A stretch of DNA of 5,441 nucleotides from Clostridia bacterium. Its GTDB lineage: Bacteria; Bacillota_A; Clostridia; Oscillospirales; CAG-272. The position numbers were made by a program, and so were the translations under genes. The notes under the pieces are model-generated. The model did not search any database. It saw only the letters and a program-made list of their open reading frames with translations, and was not told the origin of the DNA. Below are positions 1,938-5,441 of this stretch, in pieces. How positions within the stretch are numbered: position 1 is the first letter of the stretch; every line of letters begins with the position of its first letter. Where the stretch lies: the NCBI GenBank assembly GCA_017959485.1, contig JAGDAM010000042.1, positions 1 through 5,441 on the forward strand. Reading direction: 5' to 3'.

Positions 1938-3518
1938 TTATCTTTGTTTGCAGGTCCTAAACGCGGCGGCCATTCCGATGAGAGCGACGACTCCGGCGAC
2001 GGCGAACCATACGGCGGTGTCTCCGGTAGTGGGGGCGGTCGGATCTGAGGGAGCGGCGGGCGCCTGATATCCGAGGTTGGCTATCGCGGCGGCGGCTGCC
2101 GCGGCGTCTGCGGCGGAGACTAACTGAAGGGTGTCGGGCCTGTTCGAGAAGGCGGACCTGTTGTCTTTGTAGTCATCACTCTCTGCGTAGGTGAACCAGT
2201 CGGGAGTATCCGCGTCGGAGAGTATAACGTTGATATTGTAATTGGCCCCTTTGGTGGAGCTGGAGAGTCCGACGAAAGCGTCATAGAACTGGGTCGGTTC
2301 TCTCTTGGCTTCCGCGCATCTCGAAACGGTTCCGAGTCCTACGCCGGTGATCGTAGTGTTCTGCTTCTGTCCCTCTTCCATCGTTCTGGTGTCGTTGGTG
2401 TAGGCGAAGAGCTGGGACGCGAAGCTTCCGGCCTGGACATCGCCTTTGTTGACGCAGTCGATGACCGAGCCGAAGATATAGTTGCCATTCTGACCTCCGC
2501 ACCATACGTATCCGGCGATACCCGCGGCACTGGAGTTCTTTGACGTCACGTTGCCCTCGTTGAGACACTTGACGATCCTGACCATGCAGTAGTGTCCGTC
2601 CGCAGTGGGAGTCGAACCGAAGATTCCGGCGGCGTAAGATGTGCCTCCGTCCGCCGCGGTATACGTAGACGTGACGACGCCTTTGTTGGTGCAGTTTTCG
2701 ATGAGAACGGAGCTGCTTCTGGCGTGGCCGAGAATGCCCGCGGCCTGAGACGTTCCGGTAACGTTGCCGGTGTTAAGGCAGTTTTTGATGATCACGTTCG
2801 AGATATCGTTGTACGCTTTGTCGTCGCCGCCGTAGCGTCCGACGATTCCGCCCGCGACGCCGCTCAGACCTCTCGCAACGTCAATGGTTACGTTTCCGTT
2901 GTTGACGCAGTTGATAACCGTGAGGGTGCTGGGAGTTGTGACAGTTTCATCGTTTACCTTCTTCGAGCCCTTGCTCTGCGAGTATCCGACGAATCCGCCC
3001 GCCATATTGCCGCCCGAGATCGCAGCGTTGTTAACGCAGTCCCTGATGGTCACGGTCGAACCCGAGCTGATCTGGCCGATAAGCGAACCGCCGCGGTAGG
3101 CGAACGTGACGCTGCCGTTGACGGTGATGTTTTCGATCAGAACGTTCTCGGAGTTAGCGGGGACCTGGTTGGCGATCGCACCGGCGTAGGAAGCGGTTGC
3201 GTTTGCGGTTCCTTCCTTTACGACCGAGCTGTTGATGGTGAGGTTTTTGATGGTTCCCATAAACTGTACGAAGAGAGGAGCGGAGACGGTAACCGTGTGT
3301 CCGTCACCGTCAAAAGTCCCCGCGAAGGGAGTTACGGGATCGGCGCCCCAGGAGGCGTCGATGGTGATATCCGCGGTCAGTTTGTAGTTTCCGTCCGCGG
3401 TCATAGCGGCAAAATCTGCGGCGGTGGCTATCGGAGTCGCTTCTTCGGCGTTAATACCCAAGACAGCGATCGAGAGCAGCAGTGCGGCGCCGAGGATGAG
3501 AGCGATAGTTCTGCGCAT
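1938..3518 (-). CDS. Secreted cell-wall-anchored beta-helix protein with C-x-N-x-G (GLUG-like) repeats
   Basis: This 526-residue protein has a signal peptide (about 1-24: MRRT, hydrophobic core, then INA|EE). Residues 28-80 match the usual opening of gut Firmicutes beta-helix surface proteins: TAADFAAM, NYKLTADI and PFAGTFDGDGHTV. Residues about 121-401 are helix coils carrying CVNNA (161), CVNNGNV (204), CLNTGNV (247), CTNKGVV (276), CLNEGNV (318), CVNKGDV (355) and a worn CAEAK (401). Several are followed by AGGxVG, AGIxG or similar turns typical of GLUG-like repeats. Residues 470-480 are Ala-rich. The end is a Pro/Ala linker, APTTGD (495-500), a hydrophobic stretch (about 501-520) and the tail RTCKQR, a sorting signal with Ala in place of Leu. 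The ATG at 3518 has an RBS and lies downstream of a consensus promoter. A role in adhesion or binding at the cell surface is the family expectation. No catalytic site is visible, so it is not called an enzyme. Confidence 0.87.
   Translation of the reverse strand: MRRTIALILGAALLLSIAVLGINAEEATPIATAADFAAMTADGNYKLTADITIDASWGADPVTPFAGTFDGDGHTVTVSAPLFVQFMGTIKNLTINSSVVKEGTANATASYAGAIANQVPANSENVLIENITVNGSVTFAYRGGSLIGQISSGSTVTIRDCVNNAAISGGNMAGGFVGYSQSKGSKKVNDETVTTPSTLTVINCVNNGNVTIDVARGLSGVAGGIVGRYGGDDKAYNDISNVIIKNCLNTGNVTGTSQAAGILGHARSSSVLIENCTNKGVVTSTYTAADGGTSYAAGIFGSTPTADGHYCMVRIVKCLNEGNVTSKNSSAAGIAGYVWCGGQNGNYIFGSVIDCVNKGDVQAGSFASQLFAYTNDTRTMEEGQKQNTTITGVGLGTVSRCAEAKREPTQFYDAFVGLSSSTKGANYNINVILSDADTPDWFTYAESDDYKDNRSAFSNRPDTLQLVSAADAAAAAAAIANLGYQAPAAPSDPTAPTTGDTAVWFAVAGVVALIGMAAAFRTCKQR
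2316..3158 (-). repeat. Beta-helix coil repeats coding region
   Basis: This stretch encodes residues about 121-401, the repeated coils. Conserved Cys codons fall at residues 161, 204, 247, 276, 318, 355 and 401, with spacings of 29-46 residues. The repeats are recognisable in protein but well diverged in DNA, so slippage-type recent expansion is unlikely. Confidence 0.7.
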
Positions 3519-3785: not shown

Positions 3786-5078
3786 ATGAACGGTTCGGGC
3801 GTTGAGCGCGGGATACGGGTCTGTCTCGCCAACGATTCCTTTCCGCCGCTTATCGACGGCGTTGCGAATACGGTCGTCAATTACGCCGCGGTCATCGAAA
3901 AACAGTTCGGATCGGCGATCGTCGCGACTCCCGGCTATCCCGGAGTCACCGACGATTATCCTTTCCCCGTCGTCAGATACCGCAGTCTCAACACTACGAG
4001 ACTGCTCGGGTACCGGTCGGGAGACCCTTTCGACCCGGATACCTTTTCAAAGATCTCCTCGTTCTCCCCCGACGTGATACACAGCCACTGCCCGCTCGCC
4101 TCATCCTTCCTCTGCAGAGGGCTGCGCGAGGAGACGGGTGCTCCGCTCGTTTTCACCTATCACACGAAATTCGACATCGATTTCGAAAGGGCGCTGAAGC
4201 TCGGTTTTCTGAAGGAAGCCGCGGTCAGGGTGATGATCGAAAACATATCGGCGAGCGACGAGGTCTGGGCGGTCAACCGGGGTGCCGCCGACAATCTGCG
4301 CTCTCTCGGATACGGGGGAGAGATCAGGATTATGCCTAACGGGGTCGATTTTCCGGAAGGAAGACTGTCCGGGGAGGATACCGCCGCTCTTCGCGCGGAG
4401 CTCGGCCTGTCCCGAGACGTTCCCGTTTTCCTCTTCGTGGGCAGAATGATGTGGTACAAGGGACAGCGGATCATTCTCGAAGGACTGCGGCGTCTCGTCT
4501 CTTCTGGCCGCGATTTTCGGATGCTTTTCGTCGGTGACGGCGACGATCTCGCCGAAATAAAAAAAGCCGCGGAAGACTGCGGCGTCGGGGACAGGTGCCG
4601 GTTCACAGGCGCCGTGCGCGACAGGGGTAAGCTGAGGGAACTGTACAGTATATCCGATCTGTTTATTCTTCCGAGCGTCTTCGACAACAATCCGATAGTC
4701 GTCAAGGAGGCCGCGGCGTGCGCCGTCGCGAGCGTTCTCATACGCGGTTCCTCTTCCGCCGAAGGGGCGACGGACGGGGTCGACTCGCTTCTTATAGGAG
4801 AGGACGGAGAAGAACTCGCCGCCGTTCTCGAACGTTCGGTGTATGAGAATGACCTTACCCGCCGGCTGGGAGAGGCGGCGCTGCGCGATCTTTACGTCTC
4901 CTGGGACGATATGATCGCCTCCGCGGTGTCGCGCTACCGCGAGATAATCGCCGCGCACCGCTCCGGGGAACTGCCGGAACGGAAAAGACGGCTGTCGGAT
5001 ATCGCCATCGAAACGCTGGCGGATATCTCGTCTGCAGTCGGACAGATGCGGGACAGCTTGCCGCAGTGGATAAGATAA
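3786..5078 (+). CDS. GT4-type (GT-B fold) glycosyltransferase
   Basis: This 430-residue cytoplasmic or membrane-peripheral enzyme should transfer a sugar from a nucleotide donor to a lipid, glycan or protein acceptor. The N-terminal acceptor half shows CLANDSFPPLIDGVANTV (13-30), DVIHSHCP (96-103) and TYHTKFD (124-130). The C-terminal donor half shows MPNGVD (183-188), FVGRMMWYKGQ (217-227, with R220 and K225 in the usual phosphate-binding positions), LFVGDGDDL (247-255) and YSISDLFILPS (287-297). The family E-x7-E motif appears as D300-x7-E308, a conservative change at the first acidic position. Residues about 392-430 form a basic, probably helical extension (PERKRR) that could touch the membrane. 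The general pattern recalls diacylglycerol glucosyltransferases and PimA-like mannosyltransferases, but donor and acceptor cannot be read from sequence. It is transcribed alone, divergently from the surface protein genes, and no other glycan gene is in the window. No signal peptide or transmembrane segment is seen. Confidence 0.9.
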   Translation: MNGSGVERGIRVCLANDSFPPLIDGVANTVVNYAAVIEKQFGSAIVATPGYPGVTDDYPFPVVRYRSLNTTRLLGYRSGDPFDPDTFSKISSFSPDVIHSHCPLASSFLCRGLREETGAPLVFTYHTKFDIDFERALKLGFLKEAAVRVMIENISASDEVWAVNRGAADNLRSLGYGGEIRIMPNGVDFPEGRLSGEDTAALRAELGLSRDVPVFLFVGRMMWYKGQRIILEGLRRLVSSGRDFRMLFVGDGDDLAEIKKAAEDCGVGDRCRFTGAVRDRGKLRELYSISDLFILPSVFDNNPIVVKEAAACAVASVLIRGSSSAEGATDGVDSLLIGEDGEELAAVLERSVYENDLTRRLGEAALRDLYVSWDDMIASAVSRYREIIAAHRSGELPERKRRLSDIAIETLADISSAVGQMRDSLPQWIR

Positions 5079-5085
5079 TATTATC
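5074..5085. repeat. 12-bp AT-rich palindrome over the glycosyltransferase stop codon
   Basis: GATAATATTATC is a perfect palindrome that includes the TAA stop (5076-5078). It has no T-run and no loop, so it is a weak terminator candidate. It may be chance in AT-rich sequence. Confidence 0.3.
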
Positions 5086-5114
5086 ACTCCGCGTTATTGC
5101 CGCAGAATATCATC

Positions 5115-5127
5115 CGGCCCGCGGCCG
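5115..5127 (+). repeat. Short hairpin resembling a stray unit of the downstream array
   Basis: CGGCC (5115-5119), loop CGC, and GGCCG (5123-5127) form a 5-bp stem with a 3-nt loop, followed by AAAGTGAATGAG. It closely resembles the array unit at 5243-5264 (stem CGGCC/GGCCG, 3-nt loop, then GTGAAAT). It lies 36 nt after the glycosyltransferase stop and 23 nt before the left terminal inverted repeat. It may be a worn array unit or part of the gene's 3' end; no T-run follows. Confidence 0.4.
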
Positions 5128-5151
5128 AAAGTGAATGAGATGCGGATATCA

Positions 5152-5184
5152 ATAATTATTAACGTTTGCGTCGTATGGGCGAGC
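5152..5184 (+). repeat. 33-bp direct repeat, copy 1
   Basis: This stretch matches 5330-5362 at 29 of 33 positions (mismatches at 5162, 5163, 5168 and 5176), with a period of 178 bp. It comprises the AT palindrome, a TTT[GA]CGTCGTA core and GGGCGAGC, the left arm of a hairpin in both copies. Confidence 0.8.
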
Positions 5185-5210
5185 AAGGCCTTCGCGCCTC
5201 GCGGCGCTCG
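5180..5210 (+). repeat. Leading imperfect hairpin of the array
   Basis: Outer arms CGAGC (5180-5184) and GCTCG (5206-5210) can pair, or alternatively GCGCC (5194-5198) and GGCGC (5203-5207) form a tight stem with a TCGC loop. It precedes the first GTGAAAT linker at 5214 and does not share the compact 3-nt-loop geometry of the later units. Confidence 0.45.
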
Positions 5211-5213
5211 GCA

Positions 5214-5314
5214 GTGAAATTCGCGCTTTGCGCGAGCGAAATTCGGCCTGCGGCCGAGTGAAATAAAACGCTTCGCGTTTTGTGAAATCTTCGGGCGGAG
5301 CCCGAAGGTGAAAA
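5214..5314 (+). repeat. Array of four stem-loops separated by 7-nt GTGAAAT linkers
   Basis: The linkers start at 5214, 5236 (GCGAAAT), 5258, 5282 and 5308 (GTGAAAA). The intervals between them are filled exactly by perfect hairpins: 5221-5235 (TCGCGC/GCGCGA, loop TTT), 5243-5257 (TCGGCC/GGCCGA, loop TGC), 5265-5281 (AAAACGC/GCGTTTT, loop TTC) and 5289-5307 (CTTCGGGC/GCCCGAAG, loop GGA). Stems are 6, 6, 7 and 8 bp, always with a 3-nt loop. Stem sequences differ while pairing and linker are kept. Unit spacing of 22, 22, 24 and 26 nt and TGA within linkers exclude coding. Confidence 0.85.
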
Positions 5315-5326
5315 GAGACGCAAATC

Positions 5327-5373
5327 ATAATAATTATTACGGTTTACGTCGTAGGGGCGAGCATCGCTCGTCC
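5327..5373 (+). repeat. Partial second copy of the element's left end with one hairpin
   Basis: It overlaps the right end of the first element and repeats its left 33 bp (copy 2 at 5330-5362). It then closes into a single hairpin: 5355-5362 with 5366-5373, 8 pairs including one G-T, loop ATC. This has the same size and loop length as the fourth array unit. No GTGAAAT linker follows. Confidence 0.7.
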
Positions 5374-5441
5374 GCCTTCAACACGATAACCGCCGAGGAA
5401 TATTGGTGATATCTCAAATCACATAAACGCGTGCCTTCCCC
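5374..5441. other. Intergenic end of window, nothing clear
   Basis: No reading frame or RNA gene is recognisable. GTGAT (5406-5410) and ATCAC (5418-5422) could form a weak 5-bp stem with a 7-nt loop. The window ends in GTGCCTTCCCC, which could be the left arm of another stem-loop cut by the boundary; this cannot be tested here. Confidence 0.3.

Follow-up and report, generated by a model that had tools for sequence, protein, structure and literature searches.

The 5,441-nt window analyzed here, i.e., the whole stretch of DNA taken from contig JAGDAM010000042.1 of a Clostridia bacterium, carries an array of short hairpins separated by near-constant linkers. We judge it somewhat probable that this array is the lone arm of a family of small elements, dispersed in gut Clostridia and carrying an S23 gene, whose hairpin string would act as DNA and would be recognized by the S23 protein. 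The family has a recognizable architecture, with strings placed before S23 genes and behind tRNA genes, linker words linked to S23 clades, a repeated unit with sharp ends, string-only copies and a particular type of loop. A complete element (about 0.6 kb in the one unit measured) would often have a tRNA gene and a terminator-like hairpin first, then hairpins spaced by about four GTGAAAT linkers, an inverted string with about four ATTTCAC linkers, and finally a gene for an S23/IVP four-helix protein.

The hairpin string in the window

A preliminary description of this DNA had listed five linkers (three exact GTGAAAT, one GCGAAAT and one GTGAAAA) alternating with four perfect hairpins, whose stems have 6, 6, 7 and 8 bp and whose loops all have 3 nt. 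These positions and lengths were found in the sequence as described. The span given to the array, 5214 to 5314, does hold it but is slightly short, as a fifth hairpin, with a 5-bp core and the loop GCGA on the minus strand, lies outside it at 5188-5213. The string thus extends to 5188, and consists of one arm with five linkers, two of them altered. The features of the array and its surroundings are the following (genomes and loci are designated by G and L numbers).

3786..5078, plus strand: upstream neighbor, group 1 glycosyltransferase gene (Pfam PF00534, PF13439)
5151..5172, no strand: 22-nt inverted repeat around the array (86%), left arm (repeat search, DNA-fold centroid)
5188..5213, minus strand: fifth hairpin, core GCGCC-GCGA-GGCGC, flanking G.A mismatches, outer GCC/GGC (sequence, minus-strand folds)
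5212..5293, plus strand: match to the Rfam Gut-1 RNA (RF01706), 56.3 bits, gathering cut-off 50, E 1.6e-9, model positions 1-77 of 77
5214..5220, minus strand: linker 1, GTGAAAT on plus, ATTTCAC on minus (sequence)
5221..5235, minus strand: hairpin, 6-bp stem, 3-nt loop AAA on minus (sequence, minus-strand RNA and DNA folds)
5236..5242, minus strand: linker 2, one-base variant GCGAAAT (sequence)
5243..5257, minus strand: hairpin, 6-bp stem, loop GCA on minus, GNA type with C-G closing pair (sequence, folds)
5258..5264, minus strand: linker 3, GTGAAAT (sequence)
5265..5281, minus strand: hairpin, 7-bp stem, loop GAA on minus, GNA type with C-G closing pair (sequence, folds)
5282..5288, minus strand: linker 4, GTGAAAT (sequence)
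5289..5307, minus strand: hairpin, 8-bp stem, loop TCC on minus, off the loop rule (sequence, folds)
5308..5314, minus strand: linker 5, one-base variant GTGAAAA (sequence)
5317..5338, no strand: right arm of the same 22-nt inverted repeat (repeat search, DNA-fold centroid)
5351..5373, plus strand: separate GTAGGGGCGA-type hairpin repeat adjoining the array (sequence; similar sequence near the array in L010)

The RNA fold of positions 5130-5390 beats 200 of 200 shuffles on both strands (z of -4.7 on the plus and -5.6 on the minus strand), and the DNA fold of 5140-5350 on the minus strand has a z of -3.9, with 1 of 200 shuffles equally good. Apart from Gut-1, all Rfam matches in the window were under their cut-offs. 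The alternation of constant and variable parts had been likened to a CRISPR, an analogy that we do not retain. A CRISPR array, with identical repeats, unrelated spacers and cas genes, was rejected: the spacers in the window are palindromes and the Rfam listing includes no CRISPR repeat.

The second inverted arm with ATTTCAC linkers is absent from the window, whose record ends 127 nt past the array. The tRNA scan found no tRNA in the window. By eye, no window ORF is an S23 gene and the three main ORFs have no PF05635 match, in a record whose end cuts one side. We term the array a solo arm, and not a complete element, because the second inverted arm is absent. With neither second arm, S23 gene nor tRNA, it is therefore tied to the S23-linked elements by family only. 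Its closest sequence relatives among the fetched loci are the one-armed arrays L106 and L085, and its best reading is that of a solo or relic arm of the S23-linked hairpin-string family. The Rfam scan of the window found no rRNA match, hence we do not class the array as a 23S rRNA intervening sequence. The glycosyltransferase gene has its 3' end about 110 nt before the fifth hairpin. When an array-free counterpart of the site was sought via this gene, the best relative in 291 genomes was just 52% identical.

The inverted repeat that encloses the array scores 14.5, the 95th percentile of the control being 12. It was rejected as a general element boundary, since 0 of 76 distinct one-armed arrays were above the 99th percentile of swapped flanks. 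Repeats of the GTAGGGGCGA type occur in the window, L010, L118 and L001, and resemble a separate REP-like family; GYAGGGGCGA sites are found in 29 of 479 loci, only some of these having the hairpin (by eye). Elsewhere in the window, positions 66-1721 and 1938-3518 of the minus strand encode two large proteins, probably secreted, with alike C-termini (PTTGD..WFAV.G.VAL.GM) and no Pfam match. A long GC-rich inverted repeat lies near 1858-1900, between these two large ORFs (by eye).

Strings in other genomes

To search a collection of species genomes, we used a pattern of three exact GTGAAAT linkers with gaps of 12-30 nt and unconstrained spacers. At least 118 genome loci match it; among those listed, 58 have palindromic spacers and 60 do not, which provides a natural control. 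According to record titles, the 58 palindromic loci listed, several of which share one genome, correspond to 54 Clostridia-type MAGs, 3 Akkermansia(ceae) and 1 uncultured bacterium. This bears out the tentative mention, in the preliminary description, of similar strings in gut Clostridia. Record titles also place strings in ruminant and other gut MAGs. Stems are perfect (G.T allowed) in 126 of the 169 distinct spacers of 62 palindromic loci (the 58 from genomes and 4 viral), where shuffling gives 0.5, a count that is conditional on the choice of these loci by a pairing threshold. Constant linkers with variable, mostly self-complementary stems are thus the rule in these loci, as they had been described for the window. 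The earlier view that the structure looks selected is likewise supported.

In eight array-bearing whole genomes, searched with gaps of 8-32 nt, we obtained 8 to 57 matches each, which overlap and hence represent fewer elements, and 0 matches of the reversed pattern. The search of other genomes that had been proposed thus returned many arrays in the genomes that bear them, most keeping their complementarity, and neither a lack of further arrays nor a general loss of pairing. In an even sample of the class (291 genomes), 26 genomes match the pattern, 22 of them with palindromic arrays by eye and 4 (G104, G126, G264, G292) without; the reversed pattern had 3 matches in 2 genomes. Among 145 genomes of the Akkermansia phylum, 7 match. 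Inspected by eye, 6 of these have tandem or coding-like repeats, with a hairpin inside one in G405, and palindromic arrays are confined to the starting genome, G007. Absences of genes or strings are soft throughout, because the genomes are mostly MAGs.

A link with viruses was rejected: of 120 loci on viral contigs, just 4 pass the pairing threshold, among which L185 looks weak by eye, and the strings are no general phage feature. In G007, an Akkermansiaceae MAG, several two-armed strings surround an S23 gene and a Y1 transposase gene (L293, 15986-18559). These strings may be the same family, or contamination, in another phylum.

Arms, spacers and loops

Many copies are two-armed, with about four GTGAAAT followed by about four ATTTCAC linkers, and our set has 58 distinct elements of this kind. 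We folded 51 of them as DNA (the others exceeded 210 nt, contained N or had another start). In 50 of the 51, the fold pairs at least two left with right linkers, resulting in a row of four-way junctions. This fishbone is weak evidence, because reverse-complement linkers pair in any fold.

To characterize the arms, we cut out 383 of them, the sources being L001-L118, L239-L380 and the window. The 300 in which pairing reached 60% were kept, a threshold without bias on loops or mismatch direction. As loci overlap, an arm may count twice, and each spacer was counted once. The commonest number of exact linkers per arm is four (48 of 85 left, 52 of 88 right and 81 of 127 single arms). The distinct spacers number 338, of which 236 are perfect Watson-Crick palindromes and 330 reach at least 60% pairing. 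A C-G pair closes the loop in 291 of these 330.

The loops mostly follow a rule on the ATTTCAC strand: those of three bases are GNA in 116 of 193 cases and TNC in 3, and those of four bases GNNA in 84 of 137 and TNNC in 2. In work by Hirao and by Bevilacqua, loops of the C(GNA)G and C(GNNA)G types are said to make stable DNA hairpins. Mismatches on this strand are equally one-sided, with 61 G.A vs 6 C.T (p 1.5e-12), including tandem GA/AG mismatches in 22 spacers, and the numbers of G.T (36) and A.C (21) do not differ significantly (p 0.06). Both arms of two-armed elements have these features: G.A outnumbers C.T by 22 to 0 in the left and 28 to 3 in the right arms, and G..A loops make up 67 of 95 and 83 of 115, respectively, T..C being absent from both. 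Single arrays conform less closely to the loop rule (78 of 153 are G..A, 5 are T..C), and in the window array 2 of the 4 perfect hairpins obey it. As the two arms are inverted, the loop and mismatch signature lies on opposite strands and cannot be carried by one transcript. It is mainly for this reason that we prefer DNA over RNA: the sequences suggest that the strings are DNA hairpins rather than one RNA.

The strings might instead be an expressed structured noncoding RNA, as Rfam files Gut-1, with bead-like hairpins working in trans or bound by a protein. We regard this as unlikely. The window array folds strongly on both strands, as such an RNA might, and Avd, a fold relative of S23, is reported to belong to a DGR ribonucleoprotein; but in two-armed elements the special loops and the G.A mismatches switch strands from one arm to the other, which no single transcript explains. 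RNA GNRA tetraloops also need a purine at the third position, and the four-base loops show no such preference (44 GNRA, 40 GNYA). Furthermore, in several loci a promoter-like sequence of the S23 gene is seen by eye behind the right arm. Between the two structures that had been put forward earlier as selected, an RNA of bead-like hairpins and a DNA-binding array, our results support the second, in which binding would be a putative property of the string.

The other earlier proposal, that a palindrome-making mechanism alone, without selection, produced the units, fares less well. Replication template switching can give rise to hairpins and preserve perfect pairing in their stems (PMC8794818), and perfect stems of many different sequences are what it would leave. 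Yet palindromes made and mended in this way, with no function of their own, are very improbable as an explanation, given that neither the C(GNA)G and C(GNNA)G loops, their C-G closing pair, the one-sided G.A mismatches nor the one-strand tandem G.A pairs are predicted. The same holds for linkers that are identical within an element, number about four per arm and follow the S23 clade. Template switching may be the mutational source of new stems in what we take to be DNA elements.

S23 genes next to the strings

Clustering of the ORFs near strings revealed S23-like proteins (Pfam PF05635, TIGR02436) at 7 of the 58 palindromic loci. S23 was found in 7 of 8 array genomes in one count and in 17 of 18 in another, and in none of 14 controls. 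In the 291-genome sample, an S23 match (sub-cut-off ones included) is present in 21 of the 22 genomes with palindromic arrays and in 69 of the 269 others, with kinship uncontrolled.

With exact GTGAAAT linkers only, a string lies near just 4 of 17 S23 loci in array genomes. We searched with the L079 protein, obtained S23 matches in 123 of 295 genomes, and retained the 30 best-scoring loci, a set biased to one clade because L079 is itself string-linked. In these best 30, the mean number of perfect hairpins is 5.4 in the 300 nt upstream and 1.07 downstream, against 0.4 in shuffled sequence; at least four hairpins occur upstream in 24 loci and downstream in none (L425 is without upstream sequence). 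A set of 26 motif-filtered S23 rows had pointed to strings confined to one S23 clade, and this was overturned by wider hairpin and linker counts. In a coarser split, by hairpins alone, at least four lie upstream in 38 of 46 loci nearest the L079 clade and in 17 of 29 nearest another clade. For the linker counts, we joined the best-scoring S23 matches with six loci of the GTGAAAT scan and dropped duplicates and loci with less than 190 nt upstream, which left 70. A two-armed linker score of at least 2 is reached upstream in 57 and downstream in 8 of these 70 (1.75 expected from shuffles), and a score of at least 3 in 39 vs 1; 13 have no two-armed score upstream. The copies in 23S rRNA intervening sequences (IVS) and other S23 genes have no strings by eye.

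The S23 model resembles Avd of diversity-generating DGR systems, with 11% identity and about 2 Z units above other helical bundles. A kinship of fold predicted in this way shows no function. The sequences that follow S23 stop codons differ, hence the right boundary of the element is not located this way. In 16 of the 56 string-linked S23 genes with a readable stop, the stop overlaps an ORF of at least 40 aa (ATGA; e.g., L087, L412, L424, L430), and several of these ORFs are mutually unrelated, making them possible cargo genes. G230 has four near-identical S23 genes (L451-L454) beside 23S rRNA motifs and without strings, which are probably ordinary rRNA intervening sequences.

Linker words and S23 clades

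Other S23 clades have two-armed strings with other words, for example GCTAAAT/ATTTAGC, ATGATG/CATCAT, TCGATAT/ATATCGA and GTGAAGT/ACTTCAC. Read on the S23 strand, the loops of their left arms are T..C in 28 cases, G..A in 1 and other in 19; of the 26 right-arm loops, 7 are G..A, none T..C and 19 other. The polarity of the loops is thus inverted as in the GTGAAAT strings, and weaker on the right arm. On a tree of 55 S23 proteins, the linker word needs 10 changes, where the minimum is 8 and the shuffled mean 20.6, with 0 of 200 shuffles as low. This count uses four labels given by eye, with related words merged and the loci of unclear word (L382, L390, L403, L439) excluded. One genome, G003, has three linker words on different S23 paralogues. 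Since these paralogues bear three words and the word tracks the tree, the linker word follows the S23 protein and not the host. The match between word and clade is explained if string and gene descend together as one unit. A functional reading is that the S23 protein may recognize the word.

Location behind tRNA genes

A tRNA gene within 420 nt points at the string in 22 of the 58 palindromic loci and away from it in none, while random positions give 2.8%. Similarly, 32 of the 49 string-bearing S23 loci with enough sequence have an upstream tRNA gene on the same strand, with 0 on the opposite strand and 0 downstream, and 1 of 12 string-less S23 loci has an upstream tRNA. The 34 tRNAs of the whole set cover 16 amino acids.

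These positions, with the window array also following the 3' end of a gene, might indicate a 3' end device of tRNA and mRNA genes, whose hairpins would end or protect transcripts. We consider this quite improbable: a terminator-like hairpin with A- and T-runs already parts tRNA and string in most of 21 loci (by eye), a scan of window positions 5040-5441 found no terminator-like site, and the S23 gene and linker families would be left unexplained.

Some strings (L424, L100, L102) are preceded by incomplete tRNA 3' ends (by eye), as if the element had carried or duplicated the tRNA end. In some two-armed elements (e.g., L081, L087, L474), two pairings are possible for the 5' half of the first hairpin, either with the 3' half of the same hairpin or with another copy of it in mid-element, and the three pairing segments co-vary between elements (both by eye).

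Signs of mobility

In G146, a 637-bp unit comprising the string, S23 and about 35 nt more is present at two sites with different flanks, the copies being 98.0% identical, and the genome has 13 further string-only matches. Among nine of the latter, eight measure 170-171 bp, with 3 or 4 linkers on the left and 4 on the right, and the ninth (L470) has 4 left and 3 right linkers in 173 bp. The congener G096 shares the left flank of one of the two sites (77.6%) without the element, and this empty site matches G146 at the left flank only. String-only units also occur at two sites in L019 (247 bp, 95.5%) and L032 (211 bp, 97.6%), where they begin at the tRNA end or at the terminator A-run.

REPINs are dispersed hairpins in inverted pairs, and the strings are like REP/REPIN and RAYT systems in consisting of DNA hairpins that are dispersed, inverted and flanked by a short conserved motif. 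That they are REP-like hairpins spread by a Y1 (RAYT-type) transposase seems highly improbable to us, although a Y1 gene does lie between string groups in one Akkermansiaceae genome. REPs are near-identical, with conserved stem sequences, whereas the stems of the strings vary. Y1_Tnp was found in just 3 of 8 array genomes (MAGs), not including G003, the richest of them, and S23, in 7 of the same 8, is the steadier companion. A reverse transcriptase (RVT_1) is present in 3 of 18 array genomes. By these counts in MAGs, neither Y1 transposases nor reverse transcriptases seem to be general movers.

Comparison with known systems

The preliminary description is supported in part; it had overlooked that the array matches Gut-1 and that many copies have a second, inverted arm, along with the S23 gene, the association with tRNA genes, the families of linkers and the loop rule. 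Gut-1 was reported as a likely noncoding RNA, "Human gut only" and with no function given in the text available (Weinberg et al. 2010, PMC2864571). We found no further Gut-1 paper in a search without preprints and with few subscription papers, and the same search returned none joining a four-helix protein, tRNA genes and hairpins or palindromes. The window exceeds the cut-off of the model (RF01706), which also matches arms of the S23-linked L404 and L420 and of the two-armed L365. Unlike Gut-1 as described in that text, the sequence appears here as a piece of a larger dispersed element, is found, by record titles, in other gut MAGs too, and has DNA-type features.

The Coxiella IVS is a 23S rRNA intervening sequence with an S23 protein and a small selfish element (PMC4990558). 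Our elements are like it in being small, apparently selfish, and associated with an S23 gene (PF05635, TIGR02436) and stable RNA genes. They differ from 23S rRNA IVS in being two-armed and placed behind tRNA genes, and the IVS-like copies of G230 are stringless. DGR targets need a DNA hairpin with a free stem sequence and a conserved GRNA loop (PMC3240598). The likeness lies in a variable stem with a conserved loop (GRNA in DGR, GNA or GNNA here) and in the fold that Avd shares with the S23 model; unlike the single hairpin of the DGR target, ours come in strings. No DGR seems at work in most array genomes, because a reverse transcriptase is present in so few.

We propose that the string acts as DNA, either as extruded hairpins or as a cruciform with paired linkers, and that the S23 protein would recognize linker and hairpin together, by analogy with DGR homing on a DNA hairpin of variable stem and fixed loop. 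The string could then be a cis site through which the element spreads or is maintained, and copies that stand alone, like that of the window, would be non-autonomous or leftover. A wider reading, which we offer tentatively as possible and rather less than probable, is that these are minimal mobile elements of a new class. Their sole protein would be the Avd-like S23, probably pentameric, and their cis site an inverted string of stable DNA hairpins with about four identical linkers per arm, usually behind tRNA genes and with clade-specific words. Gut-1 would be a DNA arm and not an RNA, and S23 would spread strings in trans without a known transposase, recombinase or reverse transcriptase.

Such elements would offer a home for Gut-1, an RNA family with no assigned function since 2010, and for the S23/IVP four-helix proteins, which likewise have none assigned. 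They suggest that the Avd/S23 fold handles DNA hairpins, a testable idea that would bring together target recognition in DGRs, intervening sequences of rRNA and a common repeat of gut Clostridia. The strings may also account for where some contigs of gut MAGs break off: contigs of array-rich genomes often end near strings, the window included (by eye).
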